A stretch of DNA of 64,000 nt from Candidatus Ecksteinia adelgidicola (GTDB lineage: Bacteria > Pseudomonadota > Gammaproteobacteria > Enterobacterales > Enterobacteriaceae): NCBI GenBank assembly GCA_020541345.1, contig CP045239.1:868001-932000 (forward strand). The letters run 5' to 3'. The notes beneath the pieces are model-generated. The model had not been told where the DNA came from and did not search any database. It was given only the letters and a program-made list of their open reading frames with translations. Made by a program: the position numbers and the translations under genes. Shown one piece after another: positions 5,837 to 47,478 of the stretch. Position 1 is the stretch's first letter. Each line of letters opens with the position of its first letter.

Positions 5837-6978
5837 GCGTTTCCTAATCTACTCTCACCATTTAAGATGAAAAAACTAAAAAGTACAAGATTTATTAAAA
5901 ATACTTACACGAATATATACACAGAGCATAACTGTTATTTTAGACTCGATGAAAAATAAGCTTACTTTTTTAATTACTTATTATCTTGAGATAAAACATT
6001 ATCTTAAGATAAAATAGTTTTTTTGTCTAAAAAATACGTAAAAATTAATATTTTTTAAATTTATATAAATTAATGTTAAAGACAAAGAATTAATATTATT
6101 TTTTAACTAAAATGTTTATTGTTTTTAAAAATCTTAGAATAAATGTTGTAAAACATATTGATTTATGTCAATAACTATCAACTAAATAAGTTTATTAGTA
6201 TAAAATAAATTAAATAATTCAGTATATTTTTATAAAAAATGAAGATTTTTTTAAAAATTTTTTATTAAATATTAAAATAAATTCAAAAATATGCGTTTTT
6301 ATATCTTAAAATTAATAAATATATTTTAACAATTGTAAGAATACTTTTTTTTAAAATTTTTATAACTATATTATTAATATTTTTTTAAAATTTATACTGT
6401 TTTACACTGTATACAACATATTAATCATGTAATACGAAACATACATTATTTGTTTTTAATTTTTTTTGTATAATATAAAATTAACTCGTTTTATTTTTGT
6501 ATTATTCACTTTTAGTAAAGTTTTTATGCATAAAATTTTAACTGATTAAGAATATTTTGTTTAAAATTTTATAATAATTAAAAACATTTATATATGATAA
6601 ATAACATATAAACATTTAACTTATATACTAATGTCGGTGATTTATTAATTCTGAAAAGTATTTATGCTTATTATACAAACAATAATTTATTTAATAAAAT
6701 TATTTTGTTTTTATTTTTAATATATATTAAAAATTTTTCTATAATAATAATTAAACACTAAAACTAATATAATAATACATATCTTTATTATCCGTTATTT
6801 TGATCTTTAACATATTGTCATTTTAACATTAAATAAATATAATTTATATATACTATTTATTAAAGATATATTGTTTACTATAGCTTTATGAAAAAAATAG
6901 CTTTATAAAAAAAATTAATAGCACAATTTAAATCACTATAAAAATATTATAAATATTATATTTATATACCTTTATTAT
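5837..6978. other. 1.1-kb A/T spacer where rseP would be
   Basis: In enterobacteria rseP lies between cdsA and bamA on the same strand. Here no open frame remains in this interval. Only the part nearest bamA (about 5862-5975) has slightly higher complexity and may be the decayed rseP 3' end; the rest is low-complexity A/T. Confidence 0.6.
5862..5975 (-). pseudogene. rseP: Possible 3' remnant of site-2 protease rseP
   Basis: The reverse strand just upstream of bamA contains fragments that resemble the RseP C-terminus: LCVYIRVSIF against FCYRIGSIL, and in a nearby frame VFSS-stop against DFSRL-stop. They lie in the right position and orientation. The match is short, needs frame changes and is compared with the family from memory, so it is a suggestion. 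If right, RseP has been lost, and with it regulated proteolysis of anti-sigma-E. Confidence 0.3.
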
Positions 6979-7832
6979 TTATATATTAAAAAATAATAAT
7001 ATTAAACAAACAAATAAAGGTGCTGCTGAAGTTAAACTATCAATACGATCAAGTATTCCTCCATGCCCTGGTATTATATGTCCACTATCTTTAACATTTG
7101 CTGCACGCTTAAACATACTTTCTGTTAAATCACCTAATACTGACACTAATGAAATAATAAATGATAAACATAACAATGTTATTATATCTATTTTTAATGG
7201 CCAATATCGAGAAAATTTCCATGAAACAAACATTGATATTATTAATCCACCAATTAATCCTTCCCATGTTTTACCAGGAGAAAGATGAGGTGCAAGTTTA
7301 TTCTTTCCAAATAACTTGCCACATATATAAGCACCAGAATCCATGCTCCAAATAAGTAACATTAAATACAATAACAACCAAGAACCAGTTAAATTATTTT
7401 CTTTATAATGAAATTCACGAAGTATTAAAAAACTCCAAAAAAAAGGTAAAATCGTTAAAAAACAAAAAAATAAATGTAATTTTAGAGAATGATACCAAAA
7501 TATTGAAGAATAAGGATAAAATATAACTAAAATCAGTGCTATAAACCACCAAATTAATGATAACCAACAAAAAATTTTTGTTAAAAAATAATTTATCATG
7601 TAATTTTTATTAAAATAAAGAAACATAATTATTACTAATAATAATATAAATAAAATTGTTAAAAAGATACGCTGGTTTTTTAAAGTCAATCTTGCGATTT
7701 TTCCCCATTCCCAAATAGCTCCTACGCATACCAAAAATGTTACAAAATAAAAAAAAATACTGGTAATAAGAATAATACTAAAATTATAAAAAAAATTAAA
7801 ATAATAGATGTTATAAGACGATCTTTTAACAA
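6979..7832 (-). CDS. cdsA: Phosphatidate cytidylyltransferase, split by a -1 frameshift
   Basis: Makes CDP-diacylglycerol from phosphatidate and CTP at the inner membrane, the branch point to all phospholipids. The C-terminal signature is complete (SVLGDLTESMFKR, then GHIIPGHGGILDRIDS) and about seven membrane helices are visible. The N-terminus is in another frame: TTG at 7832 opens LLKDRLITSIIL, like the enterobacterial MLKYRLIS start, and runs to a stop at 7740-7742, 30 codons later. The frames meet in a T9 run (plus-strand A9, 7749-7757). With ten T the protein would be 284 residues, against 285 in E. coli. Alternatives are translation from TTG at 7734, giving 251 residues without the first helix, or a sequencing error. 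The start overlaps the uppS end. Confidence 0.9.
7749..7757 (-). other. cdsA: Slippage-prone T9 run at the cdsA frameshift
   Basis: Nine A on the plus strand give nine U in the cdsA mRNA. One extra U (U10) joins the upstream frame (LLPVFFF) to the downstream frame (YFVTFLVCV) with no internal stop, and restores the family's length between LLP and WEWG. RNA polymerase slippage on long homopolymers is known to rescue such genes in insect symbionts. Confidence 0.7.
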
Positions 7833-8596
7833 GAATTTTTCCTTAAAGAAGAAGGTACGATAGGTATTGTTCCTCCAAAACGACGTTTTCGTTTTGAAAA
7901 TTCATTTAATGCATTTTGAAAAGCCAACTCATCAAAATCAGGCCAAAGAATCTCAGTAAAATACAATTCAGAATAAGCAATTTGCCAGAGTAAAAAATTA
8001 CTAATACGATATTCTCCACCAGTACGAATAACTAAATCCACTGGTGATAAATCTCCCATAGACATTGACTGATTTAATAGTGATTCACTAATTTGTTCTG
8101 GCAACAATACACCATTTTGTATTTTTTTTGCTATTTTTTTCGTTCCTTCAATAATATCCCAACGACCACCATAATTAGCAGCAATGTTAAGTATTAAACC
8201 ATTGTTGTTTTTTGTTAGATTTTCAGAATAATGAATTTTCTCCTGTAAAGTCATATTAAAACGACTAATTTCACCTATTACTCGTAATTTTATATTATTT
8301 TTATGTAGATTTTTTAACTCTTTATTTAAAGAATTAATAAATAATTCCATTAATGAAAATACTTCTTTTACTGAACGATTCCAATTTTCGCTGCTAAAAA
8401 CATATAAAGTTAGAGTTTTTAAATGATGAGAAATAGCAAATTTTATTACACGACGTATCGATTGTATTCCTTCTTTATGGCCAAATATTTGCAATTTTCC
8501 ATGACGTTGAGCCCAACGTCTATTACCATCCATGATAATAGCTACATGATTAATATCTAAAAGAAATGAATTAGTTTTTTTTTTATTTTTGATCAT
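7826..8596 (-). CDS. uppS: Undecaprenyl diphosphate synthase
   Basis: Cytoplasmic cis-prenyltransferase that extends farnesyl-PP with isopentenyl-PP to the C55 carrier used for peptidoglycan and other envelope sugars. It has 256 residues, family length. The motif IIMDGNRRWA carries the catalytic aspartate (residue 23), with GHKEG shortly after, and the late RTGGEYRISNFLLWQ and ELYFTEILWPDF motifs are intact. The mRNA has an A10 run near the start (plus-strand T10 at 8575-8584), read in frame as lysines. The 3' end overlaps the cdsA start. In relatives dxr lies immediately upstream; here 2 kb of spacer intervenes. Confidence 0.97.
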   Translation of the reverse strand: MIKNKKKTNSFLLDINHVAIIMDGNRRWAQRHGKLQIFGHKEGIQSIRRVIKFAISHHLKTLTLYVFSSENWNRSVKEVFSLMELFINSLNKELKNLHKNNIKLRVIGEISRFNMTLQEKIHYSENLTKNNNGLILNIAANYGGRWDIIEGTKKIAKKIQNGVLLPEQISESLLNQSMSMGDLSPVDLVIRTGGEYRISNFLLWQIAYSELYFTEILWPDFDELAFQNALNEFSKRKRRFGGTIPIVPSSLRKNSC

Positions 8597-10568
8597 AATA
8601 AATAATGTTTTTATAAAAAAGTTTTATTTTCTTGTTATTTTTTATAAAAATAAATTAAAATATAGTATATATTTTCTTATTATTTTTATAATAATTAACT
8701 AAAAAATTATTTTTTATCAATTTAAATATCTTTGTTTTAAAATTTTATATCATAAAATAATCTAGATAAACAAATGTTAGTCTTAAAAAATATTTTAATA
8801 AAATTTTATAATAGAATACAAGATAATTATTAATTATTTTGTATTAAAATAATGAAAAATAATAAAGCATTTTTCATTAAAAATATATCATTTTTTGCTT
8901 TATAACAAGTAAATGATGTAAATCAATAAAAAAATAATATAATATTCTAATACTATAACATAATTTTAATATATACTTTATTTGTATTTATTTAATATAA
9001 TTTGTGTTTATTTAATATAAAATTTTTATGTAAAAATTATAACATAATTATATTTATTTTAACAACAATAGAAAATATAAATTTTTAATTGTATAATGAA
9101 TATTATTTAATTTACAATTATTATATCTGAGTTTAAAACTTTTCGAAAGTATATTCGAATAAATAATTATTAATTACTATTTAATATTTTATTATTAAAC
9201 TTTAATTTTATAAAACAAAAAATTAAATTTATTTTATATGAATTTTTATAATAAATTATTATCTACAATATATGTTTTAAAAATGACTAAATGGTTAATT
9301 TATAGATAATAAAACACGATGTAAAGTTAAAAAATATATTTAATTTTATCAAAATTATTTATTTAAATATCATTATTAAAACAATATAAATTAAATTTTA
9401 TTGACAAATATAAAATAATTCATATTTATATATAATATAAAATATAATATAAAATATGTAAATATCTGCTTTAAAAATTTTTTATTTAGAATAAATATTG
9501 ATACTTATGTTTGTATTTTACAAAAAAATATAACAAATTTAATATTGAATTATTTAAAATATAGGAATAAAGTTATTATAATATTTTCTATATATTATGA
9601 TTAATTGTTATGATTAATTATGTTTCCTATTAGCAATAGGTATCTGATAACAACATACTAAAAAATTAAAAAAAAAATAAAAATTTAATAAAATATTTTT
9701 ATATATGTTTTAATGAAATTTAATTTTTATATTATAAAAATATTTTTATTTTTTGAACATTTAATGTATAAGCATTGTTAATACTTAATAATGTGACGCT
9801 TAATTAATGATATATGTTATAGTTTCATCACTACTAAACATATTTAATATATTTATTATAATTTTATAGCATTAACATTTTAAAAATATAAAAAATGTTT
9901 TATCTTAAATTTTTTATTTTTATGACATATAGTAAATAATTTTAATATTATTTAAAATGTTAACTTTAAACAATACAAACAATACAATAATAAAAAAACA
10001 TTTTGATTATTTTCTTTAAAGAAATTAATATTATTTTTAAACATTATAAATGATTGAACTTAATTACATTATATATTTTATATAAAATTTTAAATCTATA
10101 CTTTTTAAAATTTTCATAAAATAATTAAATAATAATACATATATTTATTAATAATATGATGAATATAACAATATAAATTATCATATTTTTAAAAACATTA
10201 AAAAATTTATATGAATTAAATTATAATTTATTCTTTTAAAGAAGATAATATTGTTATGATATAGATAAAAATATATTTTAATTAAAATATTAATATAGCA
10301 CTAATCAAGTTTATTTTTTTTAAGAACTTATAATTTTATAAAAAAAGTTAATGAAGATATTTTATTTTTAATATGTAAAAAAATAAAAAAAATATTATTA
10401 TAATAATAGTTATAAAATATTTATTTTTTAAAACTTTTTATATATGTAATGTTTTATAATTTTAAAAAACTTGTTATTCATACCATTTGTTTTTTATTAA
10501 AAGATTATAATTACAAATAATTTAAAACAAATTATTATTTGATAATTCTAAAAATAACAACATAAAAT
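8597..10568. other. 2.0-kb spacer between uppS and dxr
   Basis: No gene, RNA or clear remnant is visible. In enterobacteria these genes are nearly adjacent with no gene between them, so this spacer has probably grown rather than replaced a lost gene. It holds an exact 13-bp tandem duplication (9595-9620), a 6-bp hairpin (9626-9640) and many near-repeats of A/T words. Confidence 0.6.
9595..9620. repeat. 13-bp tandem duplication in the uppS-dxr spacer
   Basis: Two abutting copies of TTATGATTAATT followed by g (first copy) or a (second). This is consistent with replication slippage in the expanded spacer. Confidence 0.6.
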
Positions 10569-11759
10569 TTATATTAATCTAACTATTTTTTTAGCAACAT
10601 TACGTGCCTGACGATCTATATCTAATATTTCATCAATACAAGATGGCTCTGGAAAAGATAAACGTTCTAATGCTGTTTGAGTAATACTAGCGATATCAGT
10701 AAAACAAATTTTTTCATCTAAAAAAGCAGATACAGCTATTTCATTAGCGGCATTTAATATAATTGTTGCTGCTTGACCAGCGTTACAAGCTTCCATTGCT
10801 AAATAAAAACAAGGATAACGTTGACGATCTGGTTTAGAAAAAGTTAATGATTTAATCTGACAAAAATCCAACTGTTTTACACCAGAATTTATTCGTTTAG
10901 GATAAGCCATTCCATAAGAAATTGATGTTCTCATATCTGGTACACCTAATTGAGCAAGTATACTACCATCAGTATAACGTACCATTGAATGTATAATAGA
11001 TTGAGGATGTAGAATAACTTCTATTTCATTAAAAGATGCATTAAATAACCAACGAGCTTCAATATATTCTAAACCTTTATTCATCATCGTAGCAGAATCT
11101 ACTGAAATTTTTCGCCCCATAGACCAATTAGGATGAATGCACGCTTGATTAGGCACGATTTTTTTAAATTGATTAATTGGTGTAACATAAAATGGACCAC
11201 CAGAACCAGTTAAAATAAAACCTAAAATTCCATAATCAGATAATGATGCATATCCTAAACGACATTGAATACTTTCAGGTAAACTTTGAAAAATTGCATT
11301 ATGCTCACTATCTAGTGGAATTAATTGTGCATGACTTTTTTTTACTTCTTCCATAAACAATCGACCACAAATTATAAGAGCTTCCTTATTGGCTAGCAAT
11401 ATCCGTTTTCCAGAACGTATTGCTGATAATGTTGGCAATAATCCAGAAGTGCCGACAATAGCTGATATTACTTGATTGACATCGCTTAATTCTGCTAGTT
11501 CACAAGCTGATTGTTCACCTGATAAGACTTTGGTCCTCAAATTATTTTCAGAAAGAATTATTCGCAATTTATTTGCAGCATCTCGATTTATCATAGCTGC
11601 ATAAGTTGGATGGTGCACTATACACTGTTCCGTCATTACTTTTACGTTATGATAAGCAACTAATGCTTTAATTGAAAAATGTTGAGAATTAGATTTTACT
11701 ACCTCTAAAACATTTTTTCCTATTGAACCAGTTGATCCAAGAATAGTTAATTTCTGCAT
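10569..11759 (-). CDS. dxr: 1-deoxy-D-xylulose 5-phosphate reductoisomerase
   Basis: Second enzyme of the MEP pathway: converts DXP to MEP with NADPH and a divalent metal, feeding isoprenoid synthesis and so the UppS substrate. It has 396 residues. The N-terminal nucleotide-binding motif LGSTGSIG starts at residue 7. Metal ligands Asp150 and Glu152 (LDSEHN) and Glu231 (GLEYIEA) fall at the family positions, and the [21 protein letters not shown] block is intact. Clear ATG start. It lies downstream of frr, with a hairpin between them, so it may have its own transcript. Confidence 0.97.
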
Positions 11760-11851
11760 AATAAATTCACTTTAAAGAATTAATTTGTAAAAAAAAAGTA
11801 GAATAATTTATTTTATAATATTAAATAATACAATAAACTAGAATTCAGCAT

Positions 11852-11887
11852 AATAAAATAGCATTTTTATGAGCATGCTATTTTATT
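11852..11887 (-). terminator. 13-bp hairpin between frr and dxr
   Basis: Arms 11852-11864 and 11875-11887 are perfectly complementary around a 10-base loop. The A-rich and T-rich ends of the stem would give a short U-rich 3' end on either strand. It lies 20 bp past the frr stop, so it probably ends or attenuates the pyrH-frr transcript. Confidence 0.55.
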
Positions 11888-11907
11888 AGTATAATATTTT
11901 TTAAAAA

Positions 11908-12468
11908 TTAAAAATTTAATAATTCCTGTTCTTTATTTGACAATATTATATCAAGGTATTTTATATAAGAATTAGTCATTTTTTGAATTTGAATTTGATA
12001 ATAATGATCTAAATCGTTACTGATTTTCTTATCTTTTTTTAATAAAATTTTTATTTTTTCATTAGCATCACGTCGTACATTACGAACTGAAATACGAGAA
12101 AACTCAGCTTCAGATCGAACTACTTTAATGAGATGTTTTCGACGTTCTTCAGTTAAAGGAGGCATCGGAACGCGTATAACACTACCAGATGAATAAGGAT
12201 TTAAACTTAAATTCGAAGACATGATGGCTTTTTCTACTATTGGAATTAAAGAACAATCAAATAAATTAATTATTAAAGTATGAAAATCTTCAACGGTAAT
12301 ATGGCCTAATTGATGAAGTGGAGTAGCAACTCCGTAATATTGAACTATAATTCCATTTAATATATTTGGAGAAGCAATACTAGTACGAATTTTATTAATT
12401 TTTGTTTTAAATGCTTCTATACTTTTTTTCATTTGAATATCAGCATCTTTTTTAATTTTATTAATCAC
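11908..12468 (-). CDS. frr: Ribosome recycling factor
   Basis: With EF-G, splits the post-termination ribosome. The 186-residue protein matches the family (185). The three-helix bundle regions and the inserted domain are recognisable, with the conserved [14 protein letters not shown] block in the middle and RRDANEKIK in the third helix. ATG start; it lies about 100 bp downstream of pyrH, as in enterobacteria. Confidence 0.96.
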
Positions 12469-12567
12469 ATTAAAAGCTCTTCAAAAAAAATAAAAACAAC
12501 GTAGGAAAGATAAATATCGTTTGTAAACTTTATCTAGTTAGAACAATAAATTTAATATAAAGTAATA

Positions 12568-15192: not shown

Positions 15193-15356
15193 TGTGTTCT
15201 CCTTAATTATATTTTAAATAAAAAGTTTTTAAAATTTTAAAAAACGTAATTCTTTCTTCTTAAATTAATTTTATTATTACCTGAATAAAAATTAAATAAT
15301 AACAATCAAAATAATGATATATTAGATTCTAATAAAACTGCTTCTGATTGAATATT

Positions 15357-16043
15357 TTAAACTTGAGATCGTCCTTCGCAAATAGCAGTAGAAACAGCAA
15401 TCAAATACATATTGACTGCACGAATTGCATCATCATTACCAGGAATAATAAAATCAATTCCATCTGGATTAGAATTAGTATCAACAATTGAAAATACTGG
15501 AATACCTAAATTATTTGCTTCTTTAATTGCAATATGTTCGTGTTCAGCGTCAATAACAAATAGCGCATCAGGTAATCCTCCCATATTCTTTATACCACCT
15601 AAAGAATTTTCTAGTTTAGTTAATTCACGATTACGTATCAAAGCTTCTTTTTTTGTTAATTTCTCAAAAGTACCGTCTTCAGACTGATTTTCTAAATCTT
15701 TTAAAAGATTTATAGACTGACGAACAGTTTTCCAATTCGTTAACATACCACCTAACCAACGATGATTTACGAAGTATTGATTACAATTATTCGCAAATTT
15801 TTTTATAGCGAGACTAGCTGCGCGCTTAGTACCAACAAATAAAATTTTTCCTTTACGAGAAGAAATTTTAGTTATTGCATCTAAAGCTACGTTTAACATA
15901 GGTACAGTTTTTTCAAGATTAATAATGTGAACCTTATTACGCACTCCAAAGATAAAAGGTTTCATTTTTGGATTCCAATAACGAGTTTGATGCCCAAAAT
16001 GAACACCAGCTTGAAGCATATCGCGCATAGAAACAGTTACCAT
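15357..16043 (-). CDS. rpsB: 30S ribosomal protein S2, shortened C-terminus
   Basis: Small-subunit protein that helps recruit S1 and mRNA. It has 228 residues; the [19 protein letters not shown] start, the [13 protein letters not shown] motif and the IPGNDDAIR motif are near identical to the enterobacterial protein. It ends at CEGRSQV, so the acidic tail of about 13 residues found in E. coli is missing. A TATAAT hexamer (minus strand, 16073-16068) about 25 bp upstream is a -10 candidate but weak evidence in such A/T-rich DNA. It heads the rpsB-tsf pair, divergent from map. Confidence 0.97.
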
Positions 16044-17205: not shown

Positions 17206-17240
17206 ATGATTATTACTTAACAAGTTTTATAAAAAATGAT

Positions 17241-17270
17241 AAAGCTAACTTTGTGTTAGCTTTATTTGTA
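17241..17270 (+). terminator. Intrinsic terminator after map
   Basis: AAAGCTAAC (17241-17249) pairs with GTTAGCTTT (17255-17263) around a five-base loop, followed by a short T-rich stretch. It lies 35 bp past the map stop and is the most GC-containing stem in the neighbourhood. Confidence 0.75.
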
Positions 17271-17930
17271 CAATTTAAAAATTTTATACTTTACTAATAA
17301 AAATTACAAAACTACACTAAAGATTACATTTTAGCACTATTTTAATATTTTTACATGGTGTCAGTAAAGATTTTATTAACTAAAGATTATAATGCATATA
17401 ATGTATACCTAATAATTAATAAACTTATTAAGTTTTTAATCTTTTTATTATATCTTATTAAGACTATTAATAATATTAATTAAATTAATTTCTTTTTATC
17501 ATAAATTTTAAAATTTATATTTTTTCATTAGTCATTATGTTTTGTATCAATTAGTTATTTATTAAAAATAAATTTAACAATATTAATTAAACAAATAAAA
17601 AAATAATTTATTTATTATAAAATTTATTTCATAGAGTTAGTTTACAAAATTTAAAATATAAACATATTATATTTTAAATTTTTTTTAAAATAACTACTTT
17701 TTTAAAATAACTACAATAAAGTTAAATTATCATTATTTTTATAATAAAATGATCATTATTATTATAATAAATAAGTTATTTAATTTATAAAAGATAGAAT
17801 AACTTTTATAATTAATAATTAATATTTTATAAGATTTTTCTATTATTTATTTAATTTCAAAGTATGATTATTCATAATTAATAATAGACTATAAACAATT
17901 ATCAAATATAATTAAATTATTTATAAAAAT

Positions 17931-17964
17931 TTATACATTAATACTATTTATACATTAATACTAT
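17931..17964. repeat. 17-bp exact tandem duplication
   Basis: The unit TTATACATTAATACTAT occurs twice without a gap (17931-17947 and 17948-17964). An exact copy suggests recent slippage. Confidence 0.7.
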
Positions 17965-20506
17965 AATAATGCATTATTAATAATATATTATCAATACAAT
18001 ATATTGCTTACTTTTTAAATAAAATAACAATTTTTAATAATTAACTTACAAAAAAGACACAATTAAGGATAATAGTAAATTTAATTAAGTGTATTGAATT
18101 ATATTGTACGTAATTTTTATTTATATTTTAATTTTTTTTATTATGAATAATTATTTAAAAAATTATATATAAAATAGTTAAAAAACTATGCAAGTTCTTA
18201 AGATATAACTTACTGACATTTCTGCTAATTAAGTAATAATTGTGTAAAATGATTGTTATATAAAATTTTATAAAGATATAATAAATAAGTTTTTGTTTAT
18301 TTTAATTAGATGTAATAATTTTTCATTAAACTTTTAAAATCATTTTAAATAAAAATTTATATTTTATATTTAAATAAAAACTTATATATTAATAATTTTA
18401 TTTATTATTATTGTAATTGTAAATATTAGAATATTTAAAATAAAAATGTAAATAAATGTCTTTAAAATATTCATAAAAATAATATTCATCAAACATCTAT
18501 TCTAAATTTATTTATAAATAAAATTGTAAGTCAGTGAATAAATTACATTTAAATAATAAGAACAATTAAAAGTTTTTTTATTTAAAAAAAATGTTTTACA
18601 ATATATTTTTTTAATTATTATAATTAAAAAAATTTAATATTTGATATATTAAAATTGTTATTTATAGCGTAAAAGAAATCTATAAACGTTAATATAATAA
18701 ATTTTAATAAAATTCTTTATTGTTAACAATACAATATAAATGTCTTTTTTATTAAAAACAGTGAGATTAAAATTAAAGTGCAACAACTAAAAATATCATT
18801 AAAACTGGTTATTTTATATTCTTTATAGATAACTTGATAGAATGTAAACATTATAATATATAAAATAATTAATAAAATTATTAATTGATTAGATAACGGG
18901 ACTATTTGTCTTATTAAAAAGTAAATTAAATAAGTTTCATATCAATAATAAAAAATTATGTTTTTTTAAAATTCATAAAAAACAGTCATTAATAGTAAAA
19001 AACGTATTTATTATAATTTAAGACATCAATAAAAATATAATAATTATATTTAAAAATCACAGTATAAAAAATAATAAAATAAGTGTCATTAATTATTATT
19101 TATAAAAAAATATTCATTACTAGAAATATAATATTAATTCTCTCTAGATATTAATTTTAGTACTCATATTCATAAAGGTGTAATTAAATAAAGGTTTAAT
19201 TAATAATTAGATGACTTTAAATCATATTTATAAATTAAAAACATTTACTCTTCTGACTGTTTTAGTATTGAAGGTATGTTAAAATAGTTTTAATATAATA
19301 CAATTTTTATAAAAAATAATGATTTGTTATAATACGTATTAGAAAATAGTTAAAAAAATATAGTAACAGAAATAATTTTATCATTTTTATGTATATTTCT
19401 ATTTATTAAAGAAAATATTCGCATTCATAATAAAAAAAATGTTAATATATTAAACATTTTATAAAATGAAATAAATGAAGTATACTATCATCCATTGTTT
19501 AATTAAGTGTAATTAATAATTGTTTAATTAATAAAAAAATAGAAACTTTCTATAATTAATCTTAAATAATTAATAATTATTAAATATTTTATATAAAATT
19601 TTATCAAAAATATTAATGTTGTTAAAAGAAAAGAAATATATAATGACAAATAACTTCGTTATTTATAAACACTACTTAATTAATTTAGATAGAATACGTT
19701 TTAAACACATTCTCGAAAAATTTATAGTTGTATTTAGAAATTTAATATAAAAAGATAAATTTTATAAATTATACTCTATAATTATTGAACAAAATTAATG
19801 AAAATACATAATAAAGTCAATCTCAGTAAATTATTTGATGTTATAGATTTTATTGCAGATTAAATAATTAAATTATTATTTTTTAATATATTTATTATAT
19901 TTTTTTTAATAAAAATTTTTATTAAAATTATAAAACTTTATTTAATATTTCTATATTTATACACATCTTAAAATAAAATAATAAAGATATTAATATTATG
20001 TATAATTTTTATTGCTAATAATATTAATATTATATTATAATTTTTTAAAACAACAAGTGTATTACACTTTTAAATATAATAGTAAATCATACGTTATAAA
20101 ATTCATATAAAAATTATTATTTAAATAATATTATAAACTTATATAAGAATGTTGTTTTTTTGTAAATAAAATATATTTTTTAATTGATATCTAAAAAATA
20201 TTAAAAGCATAATTTATCATATGTAAAATTGTTTTTTTATCTTTATTATTGAATTACCAAAAGGAAATAAAAAAAATACTATAATCATTATTAAAAAATT
20301 AAAATGCATTAATATAAAAACGTTTTTATGCTTTACGAATCTAAAAATATATTATAATATATTAATACAGCACAAAAATTTTTATGAATTAAATCTTGAG
20401 GTAATAAATTGTATTTCACAAAAAATTGTATTTTATAAAATATCTAATAAAAACATAAAAAATAATTAAAATATAATAAAATATGTTGTTTTATTTTTAT
20501 TAACCT

Positions 20507-20571
20507 CTCTATTAAAGAACTATTAAATCTATTAAAGAACTATTAAAGAACTAGTAAAAGAACTAGTAAAT
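20507..20571. repeat. Cluster of short tandem repeats based on ATTAAAGAACT
   Basis: Four copies and variants of ATTAAAGAACT and AGTAAAAGAACT follow each other with changing period (about 10-18 bp). The pattern looks like repeated slippage, not a regular array: there are no constant spacers as in CRISPR. Confidence 0.6.
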
Positions 20572-21820
20572 AAATTTTTATATAATAGAATTAAAAATTT
20601 ATTAAGATGATATATGTTCATAAATATATATATTAAACAGTAAGATTATTTGTATTCATAAAATAGTGATCAAGTGTCATAACAGAAAAATCATTAAAAA
20701 ATAAACAATAATTTGTTATAATAATAGCAACATGACATTTTAAAAAAATATATTAAAAATTACATAATAATAAAAAAAATAATTTTAATAATAAAAGTAA
20801 CATATTTAGAAATCATATGTTTTGTATTAGTTATTTAAAATAATATCATCTTATTATAATGTTCACATAATGCTTTAAATTTAAGAAATACAAAAGTTAT
20901 TTAATAAATGTTAAAATATAATTTTATTAAAATAATTTATCTTATAAATTTAACTAATAGTTTAGTTTTAAAATAATATTTATGTTATTTTAAGACAATG
21001 TCTACATTAATACTTCTAATAATATTAAAATTATATATTTTATGTTGTTTATACACTTATTTTAAAAAATATTTATTACTATAAATAAATGCTTTTTTAA
21101 TACAATACATTATTTTACTTAAACTATTTTATTAAAAAAAAATAAAGAACCAAATAACAAGAAAAGTATAAAAAATATTTTATAGTTAATATAACTATGT
21201 AATATTCTTATTTCTTATATTAATTTAATAAAAATGATTATATCATACATTATAAAATAAATTCAATTTTATATAATTAAATAATAAGATCAACTTTTAT
21301 ATAATTAAAAGATAATTTATAAAATTACAGTTTATTTTAAACTGTATTATATATTATAATAATTTAATAATTTATACTTTATATAACTAAAAAACTTTTT
21401 ATTATATTTTATAAACTAATTGATGTAACTTTTGAAAAAATTTTAAAACTATATCTAAAAAAAATTAAACGTTTTTAATAATAATGATAACCTTTTAATG
21501 AAAAGTTTATAAAAATGATAAAAAATAAACATAACAAAAATATATAAATATATGTATTATTTAATTGTTTTTTTATATATAATATTGATCATTATGTTTT
21601 TATTAGATGATAGTATTATTTTTTATTTTTTAATAATTATTTAATTTTGTATAAACAATATTAGATAGTTTAATCTATAAAGTTAATATAAAATAAACGT
21701 TCATATAAAACAAAAAATAAAAGTTTGTATGTTAAAATATAAAGTATCTTTTATAAGAATAAATAAATCATGCTAATGATCATCAAAAAATTTATAATTG
21801 TATTTTTTAATAGTAAAATT

Positions 21821-21850
21821 TATTAATATTAAATGTATTAATATTAAATG
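21821..21850. repeat. 15-bp exact tandem duplication
   Basis: TATTAATATTAAATG occurs twice in direct succession (21821-21835 and 21836-21850), about 200 bp upstream of thrS. Confidence 0.7.
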
Positions 21851-21964
21851 TAAGATTATAATCATTTATATTAAATATTTCATATAAATCTATATGCATA
21901 CTTCATATCATATATTGCCGTATTTATATGTTTAAAATTAAAATATAAACCTAAACTCGGGTCA

Positions 21965-22045
21965 TATGTGTGGTATATAATACCTCATATAATTAAAAAA
22001 AACTATGCTTGCATCCACAATGAATTATATCTATAGATAAGGACT
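21965..22045 (+). promoter_or_regulatory. thrS leader: hairpin and palindrome before the ribosome binding site
   Basis: A hairpin at 21965-21991 has GGTAT/ATACC closing an ATA loop and continues through one T-T mismatch and a G-T wobble. A 12-bp palindrome, TATCTATAGATA (22028-22039), abuts the AAGGA ribosome binding site. In E. coli ThrRS represses its own mRNA by binding leader stem-loops that mimic tRNA. A comparable translational operator is possible here but inferred only from position. Confidence 0.35.
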
Positions 22046-41699: not shown

Positions 41700-43027
41700 T
41701 TTCTTTTTTTTAAAAAAAACAAAATTTTTATATTAAATAAATTGAAAATTAATAATTACTTCTATCTAAAATTAAAAATATTTCTTTTATGTATATTGAT
41801 TAGTATTAAATAAATAATTTAAAACATGCATAATTTTGTTTTTTATAAAAATTATAAGATACAATTAAATATATTAAAAATATGCATTAAATTATATTAA
41901 TTTTTTTTATTAAATAATATTTATAAAATATCGTTTATAACAAATCAATATAAAACATAAATAATATATAAAAAATTTATTATTTTCATTTTTATTTTTA
42001 AAAATCAATTTAAAAGTTTTTTAAAAATATATATTAAAGTTTTATGTAACTAACAAGTATTTTATTAATAATTTGTTTAATATTATTAATTGTTAATATA
42101 GTATATGACAAATTATAAAAATTAATTTTTAACTGTAATCAAGTACAATAATAAATTTTTATATTATTACGATATTTAGTTGATGTCAATAAAAACATAA
42201 TATATAAAAAATTAATGTTACCTATTAATATATAAATAAATATATTTGTATTAATTATAAACAATGAGTATATTTCATTAAATTAACATGTATAAAATAT
42301 TTTATAAATATTAAAAAATATCTTTTATAAAATTAAATTTATTTAATGAAATAAACATATTTTTTTATTATTTCACATATAAAAATAATTAGTAACGTTT
42401 TTATATTATTTTAAAATATAGTTTTAAATTTATATAAAACAAAAATATTTAAATTTATATATTTAAAAATATAAAATAAATGCTAGAATATACTAAATTA
42501 GTATTTATTTAAAATTAAAGACTTATATTTTTAAAGATAAATATTTATATGTATATATTTTTAAATACTTGACTATATAAACTATATAAACAAATATTTT
42601 AAATAATAAAAAAATTATTTTATACGTTGAAATAAATAAAATAACATATAATATATTTTAAATAATTCATATTATTATCTTTTCGTACAATTAAATTAAT
42701 TAAAAATTATTTTATAAATATTTTAATAAAAAAGATATATTTAACTCATTAATATGATAGTTCATAATTACATGTTTAAATGATTTTATAACATGATAAA
42801 TATAATAACTATATAATAGTTATTATACAATATTATTATCATGTTTAAAAAATAATTTTTTGTATAAGATAATAATCTTAAACATTTTATTAAATAATAC
42901 TTATTTTTTATAATTAATATTTATATTCAAAAACATTTATATATTAGTTTTATTAAAATTTTTTATAAATTAAAATAATATAAAATAATATTTAGTTACT
43001 AAAAATTAAAAAATATATAATTAATTA

Positions 43028-43057
43028 ATTTACTATTTTTTTTAAAAAATAGTAAAT
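43028..43057. other. 14-bp perfect hairpin between recB and the recC remnant
   Basis: Arms 43028-43041 and 43044-43057 (ATTTACTATTTTTT and its complement) enclose a two-T loop. The run of A/T on one side of the stem makes chance formation more likely than usual. It could be an old terminator on the minus strand past recC. Confidence 0.3.
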
Positions 43058-43299
43058 ATTTTAATTTATATCTAACTATTTTTTATTTTTTTTAATGTTT
43101 ATACATCCTTAATAAAAATTTATATAAAAATATTTATACATAATTGTAATATTATTTCTTAAAATTTTATAAAACAAACTAACAATGTAACAATTTTTTA
43201 ATAAAATCATTCTAAAATAAACGTCTTTTTTGTTCTTTTTGATTAATACATTAAATTTGTAATACATCTTTGTAAAGAAATATTAAAGTAATAAAATTG

Positions 43300-44930
43300 T
43301 TATTATTAATTACTAGTGTAATTTTAAAATTAAACTATTAACTTTACATGTTAATGTTTTTAAAACCAATGAAACTTAATTTTAATGTCTACTAACACAC
43401 TTTTAATATGTAAAATACAGTATAAAATTAATAAATATTCACTCCATCTCGTAGCAATTTAGAAAAATAATTTATAAGCTAAATAAATTATAATAGAAAT
43501 CATTATTTTTAGAATAAAAATATTTACTTCAACTTTATATAAAAATATAAAAATAGTATTTAATAAATCATAGCTAAGTATACAATAAGATGTTGTAATA
43601 ATAAGTTAAAATAATAATACATAGAGAGCTATCAGTAATATTTAATAAATTATTTTTTTAAAAAATTTAAAATCAGAAGAAACTACTTGAATAATATAGC
43701 TATTCTTTTATTTATATAGTATGATGATAAAGTTAGACTATAAGAAAAAATTCTTTCTAGTTTTTACTTCTGAATCAAAAACGTATATAATTCTTAAAAT
43801 TTTAGTAATAAGATCTTTTAAATAAACCAGTAATAAGATCTTTTAAATAAACCATTAAATCTCTGACCCATTCATTAATTCTAGAAGCTTGCTCAAAATC
43901 ATAAAAATAAACTATATTCTAGTATTAGTAATATAATTATTCATCAATATAATTTTACGATATTAACGTGAATCTATACGTCTTAAAAACAATATATTAT
44001 TTTTTTTAAAACTTTTACTACCTTGATATTTGTTTTACGCATGAAGTTAGGATAAACATTATGAAAAAAATAAAAACTATCTTTAGAATTTAACACAATA
44101 ATCAATAATAAAGACTACGATAAACAGAATTTGTTAACAACATAGTTGATACATAGCTATTTAATTAACTAACTACTAGGTTATCAAATACAAAAATTAT
44201 ATCAATTTATATAATGTGTTCATCTAATATCATAAACAAGAAATTTTAGTTCATTATGTGTGATCGTAATAAATAATTAAAGTTAATGTCTTTTAGTCTA
44301 TTAATTCCTTAACGGCAATTACATAATTAAAATAATAGTTTTAATAAAAAAACTATAATTTAGTAAAAAAATATTATCTCCTTTCTTTTAATTTATTAAA
44401 TTTCAGAGCTGTAAAAAGTTTATAATCCTTTCAAAAAATTCAGATCGACATCTACCTAAATGTCATTTACTAAACGATAAATATGAAATAATACTAAGAA
44501 TGAGAAGAACGTGAACAATAAATCAATAAGCTATAGACACAGGAAGATACTGCATCATGTTTTGTTAAATACAAAACATAATACTCAACAAGTAGCAACA
44601 ACTAATTAGTATCCACATACTATAAACCAATAAATTATAGCATAAAGTACTTTCGTAAAGTAAAAGTCTTATTCATAAATTTTACATAAATATACACAAG
44701 AACTAAAAAATATGTATTTTATATATAAAGAAAAAAAATAAAAATAATTAAATAAAAACACATGAAATTATAATATATTATCAATACACTATCACTAAAT
44801 GTATTTTATTTTAAAATAAAAATTTTGAATGAAAGTTATTAGTTAAATAATATTTATTAATAATAATATAAATAATTTTTCATCACTTGTTTATACTCAA
44901 ACTCATTAAGTTAAAAAAATTATTTAATAT
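43300..44930 (-). pseudogene. recC: Decayed recC (exodeoxyribonuclease V gamma)
   Basis: The segment has clearly higher complexity than its surroundings. Read on the minus strand it gives fragments collinear with the first third of RecC as I recall the E. coli protein: at 44,605-44,660 LCYNLLVYSMWI against LFDQYLVYRPDWL; at 44,418-44,463 GRCRSEFFERIIN against RWHRANLYQRFIE; at 44,105-44,200 a 32-codon frame with one stop, ending TMLLTNSVYRSLYY against IHLLFTNPCRYY; at 43,835-43,905 DFEQ...EWVRDLMVYLKDL against DGEQ...WGKLGRDYIYLLSDL. Stops, frame changes and a 25-bp duplication break it. Orientation and place upstream of recB match the ancestral recC-ptrA-recB order. The last two thirds are no longer recognisable. 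Confidence 0.8.
43804..43853. repeat. 25-bp exact tandem duplication inside the recC remnant
   Basis: Copies at 43804-43828 and 43829-43853 are identical. The unit is not a multiple of three and shifts the frame of the surrounding recC fragment, which ends at a TAA (43802-43804) with both copies but would continue for 20 more codons with one. Confidence 0.85.
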
Positions 44931-44961
44931 ATTTATTTTATGTTATTACTATAATATAATT

Positions 44962-44990
44962 TCTGTTTTTTATAAAACAGATTTTTTTTT
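44962..44990 (+). terminator. Terminator-like hairpin with T9
   Basis: TCTGTTTT (44962-44969) pairs with AAAACAGA (44974-44981), followed directly by nine T. The shape is that of an intrinsic terminator on the plus strand, but no plus-strand gene precedes it; it lies near the 5' end of the minus-strand recC remnant. It may be chance in this composition. Confidence 0.35.
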
Positions 44991-47478
44991 AATTACTACA
45001 ATTGATTATTAACTTTTTTTTTAAAAAAAATAAATTATTCTGTTATTTTAATTCACTATATATTGATAGATTATAGATAATATATTTAAAAAATATAATA
45101 TTAATTTTACTTTAAATAAAATAATTTTTAATTTTAAAAATATATATTTAATTTTTATAAATTTTTATTGATATCATATTTAAATAAAGATTAAATTATT
45201 TTCGTAAAAATAAAAATATTAAAATAAAAAAATAAATATAATACTTTATTTTTATAATAATTTTTAAATTATAGAAATATACAAATAATTATTATTTAAT
45301 TTTTATAAATTATTTAAGAAAACTTATACTATATAAGTAAATACTGATATTAATTAGTTTTACTAAACGAGTAATTAACATTGTTTATAAATTATAAAAT
45401 ATATTTCATATTAATTTAATTAAATTTTTTTATTTATTATATTAATCTTTCGATCTTATCTATTTTTTAAAAAAAAATATAAATTTTTAAATTTATAACA
45501 TTTTATATAAAAAATAACTTTTATAAATTTATTAATAACTATGAAAAATTTAAACATATATTTTAAAGATATAATAATTATATATTATTAATTAACATCG
45601 AAATATTTATAGTTTTTATACTTCTTAAGTAAGAAATATTTTTTTTAAAATTAGCATCATTATTAAAATAATTTAATATTTTAATAAAAAATATAAAATA
45701 TAATATTATATATATTAATTAAAAATATTTTATGGTATGTTGTTTTATTCATTCTTATTTTAATATTAAATAAGAAATAATTTTTTATTCATATAATTTA
45801 GTAAATTATAAATAACAAAATAAAATTTATTAATGTTGTAATTAAAATTAAAAAAATATTTTATATTTAAACTGTAGTTTTAAAAACTTTTGTTAATTAT
45901 AACTTTTTTTAAATAATATATAAAACATGTTAAACATTTGATAAATTAAGTATTATTTATTCTATTAAAATTCATCAAGTAATTAATGTTTTTATTTTTA
46001 TATTTTTAATATTGAAGCTTATCGTATAAAAATATTATAATATTTATTGTTTTATACTATGTATTAATAGTATATTCCTACTTATTTTTATCAATTAATT
46101 TTTAACTTAAAATCTGATAAAAATTTTAGAAATAAAACTATAAATAAAATATAAAAATTTTAAAATAATAATTTACAAAAAAAGTTCTTTTTTTAAAAAT
46201 TATTTTATTATTTAATAATATTTTTAATCTAAATATAAAAAAATATTTTCATTAATTTATTATAAAAAATTAATTTACATAAAATATATTATTTAATTTA
46301 TTTATATAGTTTCTATTTTTATTTTACTATTAAACAAACAATATGTATTTATTGTAATAAATTAAAATTTATGTCTATATTATATTATAATTATTTATTA
46401 AAATAAAAAATTAAAATATTGTACTATTTGATTTTCTATATTTTATAAATTATTTTTGTTGTGAAATCTTAATTAAAATTAATAGAATTATTTAAAATAA
46501 ACATATGATGATATAAAAGTATTATTAATTAATATTAAATTATTCTTTATGATTAATATAATAAAATACTTGATTTTTTTTATTATAAATTAATGATAAA
46601 ATAAAAATATTTTTATGATTATATTTAATCATATAATAAGGTTTAACCTAATAAAAATAAATTTAAATTTAAATTAAAAATAATTTTATTAAATAAATAT
46701 TTTATTAATATTAAAATATAGTATTTTACTATATTAATAAACAGTTTTTATAAAAAAATATGTACAGAGATATATAAAAACATTCATAATATTGCATATC
46801 ATTAATTTAAAATTATTTATTTAACTTTAAAAAATTTTAATAAAAAAATTTTTTATATGTTATAAAAAATAATTTTAAAATAAGAATGTTTTAATTAATG
46901 TACGTAATATAATATTATAAGATATATAATTACGTATTTATAAATATTAAAATAATTATTTTTATATTATTAATAAAAAAATTAATAAATAACTGATTTA
47001 TCTTTTATAAAAAAATACATAAATATAAAAAAGATCTCAAAAAGTTTTATTTTAACAAAATAACTTTTAATATCATGAAAATTTTCAATTTAGTATATAT
47101 TTATATTATAATTATTATTTAATTATTATAATATAAAAATTATTTATATTAATAAAAAAACGAAATACTTTTTTTATAAATTAATTTTATAAATAAGTAT
47201 CTTATAACTAATATATTTTTATAAAATAAACATATATAAATCATAATAAAAATTTTTTATTATAGTTTTCTATATAAATACATTATTGTTAATAAAATAA
47301 TTTAAATTTTTAATTTGAAACGTTAATCTTTAAAACTTATTATCTTTAATATTATTTGGTCTAATTTAGAATGCATAAAATGCAGCTTTAAAAACTTAAT
47401 TTTATATATTAACAATTAATATTAACCTGTGTTTTAAAATATTATGAATATCATAAATATTTTATTATAACTATATAA

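Follow-up and report, generated by a model that had tools for sequence, protein, structure and literature searches.

Frame breaks within homopolymers are known from the symbionts Blochmannia and Buchnera (PMC3017870, PMC5009743), the two precedents named in the original prediction for the locus described here. In B. vafer, the genome report describes eight genes whose frame is broken at a homopolymer and counts 153 poly-A tracts of at least nine in coding regions; dnaX, dnaG, pth, ribF, dxs, and others carry a single indel in an A/T run of an AT-rich, reduced genome, are otherwise in frame, and were proposed there to be rescued by transcriptional slippage (PMC3017870). For the poly(A) genes of Buchnera and Blochmannia (Tamas et al., 2008; Wernegreen et al., 2010), transcripts were examined, and a review's account of such frameshifted symbiont genes gives a mixed mRNA pool with 12-50% corrected transcripts (PMC5009743). 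In a report on Buchnera, 151 of 157 transcription insertions lay in homopolymers, but no restored-frame case was detected (PMC5574713). E. coli RNA polymerase, by the figures given in one study, bypasses a run of seven T by insertion at 5% of control and a run of eight T at 10%, the bypass growing with run length, at a level that its authors call low next to that of T7 RNA polymerase (PMC6260861).

Here we describe a frame break in cdsA of Candidatus Ecksteinia adelgidicola, presumably a symbiont of an animal, whose genome is one contig of 980,458 bases. The window, i.e., the whole stretch of DNA analyzed, spans 64,000 nucleotides (positions 868,001 to 932,000 of contig CP045239.1) and has a G+C content of 20.8%. 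Like the Blochmannia cases, this one is a single indel in an A/T run of an AT-rich, reduced genome, in a gene that is otherwise in frame. However, it concerns another gene, its run consists of T on the coding strand, it is known from one strain and, unlike the poly(A) genes whose transcripts were examined, it is known from DNA sequence alone. Among the matches listed in a literature search for cdsA together with frameshifting or slippage in symbionts, only a plant-plastid paper names cdsA, and our statement extends no wider than those matches.

Structure of the cdsA locus

The cdsA gene on the minus strand is split between two frames that meet in a run of nine T (Table 1), and reading both frames confirmed the predicted break and its coordinates. 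The upstream frame translates as LLKDRLITSIILIFFIILVLFLLPVFFFIL before its stop and supplies the first 28 codons of cdsA, the remaining codons lying in the other frame. The body frame is open 5' as far as 7842, with no ATG, GTG, or TTG above 7734. Translation of run-length variants gave products of 73 (U8), 30 (U9), 284 (U10), and 74 residues (U11), so that ten T do yield 284 residues vs. 285 in E. coli CdsA, as had been claimed. The run also includes U_UUU_UUU in frame, and if ribosomes shifted by -1 there, the resulting 284-residue protein would be identical to the U10 product. The lesion is a single frame break inside an A/T run of at least nine, one of the features expected of a slippage-rescued homopolymer frameshift.

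Table 1. Features of the cdsA locus (window coordinates)
Feature	Position	Strand	Remarks
ispU/uppS	7826..8596	-	Intact, 5' of cdsA; stop overlaps cdsA start
AAGGA, Shine-Dalgarno-like	7840..7844	-	7 nt ahead of TTG 7832; judged by eye
cdsA N-terminal frame	7740..7832	-	TTG start, 30 codons, then TAA 7742-7740
T9 run, frame junction	7749..7757	-	T on the coding strand; includes in-frame U_UUU_UUU
cdsA body	6979..7734	-	251 aa from TTG 7734; CDS signature intact

As in E. coli K-12, where cdsA is b0175, the gene order is dxr-ispU-cdsA-...-bamA and cdsA starts with TTG; identity to the E. coli protein over the body is 54%. In contrast, E. coli cdsA lies in one frame and is followed by rseP. Between cdsA and bamA (window 5837-6978) rseP was not found, nor was there a Peptidase_M50 match in this genome or in G001, the one congeneric genome in our comparison. 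In G001, AGGAG was seen by eye 6 nt ahead of the cdsA TTG. Searches of the window with Rfam (gathering scores) and a tRNA scan returned nothing, and the 62 promoter-like sites of 6700-12500 did not exceed the shuffle mean of 66.2; no terminator-like site was found there (shuffle mean 0.7).

Identity and integrity of the gene

A CdsA profile was built from the proteins of 28 relatives (29 loci less one short ORF). The read-through protein scored 365 bits and aligned without gaps over profile positions 1-282, compared to 335 bits for the body frame including its open 5' stretch, 331 bits for the body when started at TTG 7734, and 21.3 bits for the N-frame peptide by itself. Only seven of 5787 start-codon peptides in a 264-kb sample (the window plus ten 20-kb stretches of the same genome, L037-L046) exceeded the last score, all seven from inside the cdsA body, and the N-frame match is thus more than chance. 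An alignment-based protein search for relatives showed the N-terminus in frame with the body at 80 of 80 loci (the best 80 of 322 relatives), a set that served for this count only. The PF01148 match reached 211 bits (cut-off, 24), and cdsA is the sole gene of this family found in the 980-kb genome. NCBIfam NF008635 was the best family for both body and read-through, the latter covering profile positions 1-283 of 285; however, scores of 328 and 357 bits, respectively, fell short of its equivalog cut-off of 385 bits. The body retains the C-terminal signature, with K-D and P-G-H-G-G-x-x-D-R-x-D, in the form KDSGHIIPGHGGILDRID. The CdsA of G001 (L018 1498-2337) has KNSSN in the signature region, vs. 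KDSGH in the window and in E. coli, and from this sequence its active site is possibly altered.

Apart from the frame break, no lesion was seen in cdsA. Its 251 body codons are free of stops, and since the body is 54.4% identical to E. coli CdsA, vs. 48.2% for the intact CdsA of G001, there is no sign of faster decay. The further disabling changes or faster divergence that mark a pseudogene were not found; the rest of the gene is intact and not faster evolving, as in slippage-rescued genes. The G001 cdsA, ~50% identical and our sole same-genus comparison, is one open frame and does not share the break, which is therefore not established as old. A split was also observed in the best cdsA match (L021) of the 4.7-Mb genome G017, which falls into two frames near residues 131-134, through either an error or a real break.

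Slippage as the favored explanation

The reading we favor, tentatively and at somewhat under an even chance, is that the one-base frame break in the T9 of cdsA is genuine and is bypassed in part, chiefly through slippage of RNA polymerase, so that the gene is still in use. The otherwise well-kept gene, the intact enzymes that follow CdsA, the rarity of other frame breaks in the sample, and the published slippage figures speak for it; the read-through score below the NF008635 cut-off, the open cdsA frame of G001, and the failure to find the families of the enzymes ahead of CdsA and of PgsA speak against it. Ribosomes would begin at TTG 7832, and most mRNAs would keep U9 and encode the 30-residue peptide. 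RNA polymerase would slip in the run to produce a minority of mRNAs with one extra U, giving normal, 284-residue CdsA, to which a -1 ribosomal slip on T9 would add a small amount of the same protein. We infer that the cell itself has nine T in the run, and that rescue both happens and suffices. The observed frame break is confirmed, while its interpretation as rescued is plausible but unproven. Should the rescue prove real, a membrane-lipid gene would join the symbiont genes that slippage keeps functional and, with cdsA being probably the only entry to phosphatidylethanolamine in this cell, would offer a test of how low the level of such an enzyme can go.

Accuracy of the recorded run length

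The strongest competing explanation, which we consider unlikely but far from negligible, is that the recorded run length is wrong through a sequencing or assembly error and that cdsA is intact. One-base homopolymer indels are a typical sequencing error, cdsA is otherwise whole, and one affected gene in the sample also fits a rare error. However, the 264-kb sample holds 47 other A/T runs of at least nine inside open ORFs (at least 140 codons), so frame-breaking run-length errors look rare. Published symbiont genomes also have such cases, e.g., the eight genes described in the B. vafer report (PMC3017870); with eight there, one case in about a quarter of the present genome is ordinary. If the recorded run length is nonetheless wrong, cdsA is a warning that a single assembly does not suffice to declare such genes dead or rescued.

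The sample was compared with 18 stretches of 20 kb from G001, a counterpart being accepted at 40% identity or more and at least 60 bits. Among the 56 G001 query ORFs with a counterpart (some query ORFs may be antisense ORFs), a frame break was seen only in cdsA, and 44 counterparts were full by a strict rule. The other 12 comprised cdsA; one cut by a stretch edge; four flagged for paralogous second matches that were full or nearly full (lpxA, lpxD, atpA, and atpD); and six whose match ends were ragged but whose frame in the present genome is open (tsf and the DnaK-like, AtpC-like, SecG-like, LspA-like, and GshB-like ORFs). In the reverse comparison, 48 of 61 were full, the 13 others being six at a stretch edge, the cdsA body, and six with ragged ends. 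Of 28 E. coli proteins of the region, 12 besides CdsA had counterparts in the lpxA-to-map part of the window, each of them in a single frame, with RpsB showing a stop close to its end. A codon-usage segment scan was too weak for the cdsA N-terminus and served only for ORF frame limits.

Some incidental observations were made on the same sequences. In rpsB, an in-frame TAA (15359-15357) follows 228 codons, and similarity to E. coli RpsB continues to 15324 (window 15324-15419), so the C-terminal tail seems to be cut off. Of the 264,000 sampled bases, only 116,432 lie in ORFs of at least 140 codons, and the window has long parts (17206-22040 and 41733-47478, for example) with no open stretch of 90 codons.

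Phospholipid synthesis and possible loss of cdsA

Somewhat less probable than an error, in our judgment, is recent inactivation, by which cdsA would have turned into a pseudogene only very lately, while its lipid pathway is being dismantled. No match to PF01553 (PlsB/PlsC), PF02660 (PlsY), or PF01066 (PgsA) was found in the whole genome, which speaks for this possibility, as does the lack of a CdsA match in two of the 40 related genomes searched (G011 and G018), one of which, G018, retains Psd all the same. Loss of cdsA thus appears tolerable in some reduced genomes. With neither PgsA nor the families of the enzymes ahead of CdsA found, cdsA could be next to be lost, and the pathway may be disappearing from both ends. 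Against inactivation stand the stop-free body with its intact signature, the lack of faster divergence, and the intact PssA. PssA (452 aa, 641 bits vs. a cut-off of 314) and Psd (301 aa, 276 bits vs. a cut-off of 112) are both intact, and since PssA requires CDP-diacylglycerol, this compound still appears to be needed. The premise that cdsA is normally essential calls for caution: the intact PssA and Psd agree with it, but the relatives with no CdsA match and the failure to find PlsB/PlsC, PlsY, and PgsA do not.

Both PF13091 matches in the genome fall within the ORF of PssA, and a cardiolipin synthase of this family was therefore not seen. In G001, PF01066 and PF01553 matches are present and a PF02660 match is not. 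Judging from this gene content, the cell may import phosphatidic acid and make phosphatidylethanolamine from it, CdsA being the sole entry. It is a long shot, but the slip rate at T9 might even set the flux through CdsA-PssA-Psd as the cell's last phospholipid route, from host-supplied phosphatidic acid to phosphatidylethanolamine, the break being tolerated or favored since little CdsA is wanted.

Translation of the split gene

An improbable alternative is that ribosomes re-initiate past the N-frame stop, at TTG 7734, and that the resulting CdsA of ~251 residues works without the first hydrophobic segment. This TTG lies 5 nt past the TAA, and the body retains the catalytic region and 331 of the 365 bits. 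The oldest annotation of E. coli CdsA, which started at Met37, near the place of TTG 7734, also favors the short form. However, no Shine-Dalgarno-like site was seen by eye ahead of TTG 7734, the N-terminus is in frame at every one of the 80 loci noted above, and the N-frame is still recognizable in cdsA itself.

A phase-variation switch was set aside on judgment alone. We think it very improbable that rescue proceeds mainly by -1 ribosomal frameshifting rather than through RNA polymerase, even though the zero frame reads U_UUU_UUU, a heptamer of the X_XXY_YYZ form, and the product would be identical. U_UU.U_UU.U is listed among the E. coli motifs that shift at >0.10% without stimulators (PMC4066793), but this, the only level found for the motif alone, is well below that of slippage on seven or eight T. 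The 98 nt from the run onward, when the stability of pseudoknot-free folds was compared with shuffles, did not form an unusually stable structure either (z = +1.36; 187 of 200 shuffles folded at least as well). Since the motif's level is low and the downstream RNA is not specially structured, any rescue more likely runs mainly through transcriptional slippage. On this point the original list of mechanisms, which had overlooked the -1 shift and its identical product, would then be right to place slippage first.
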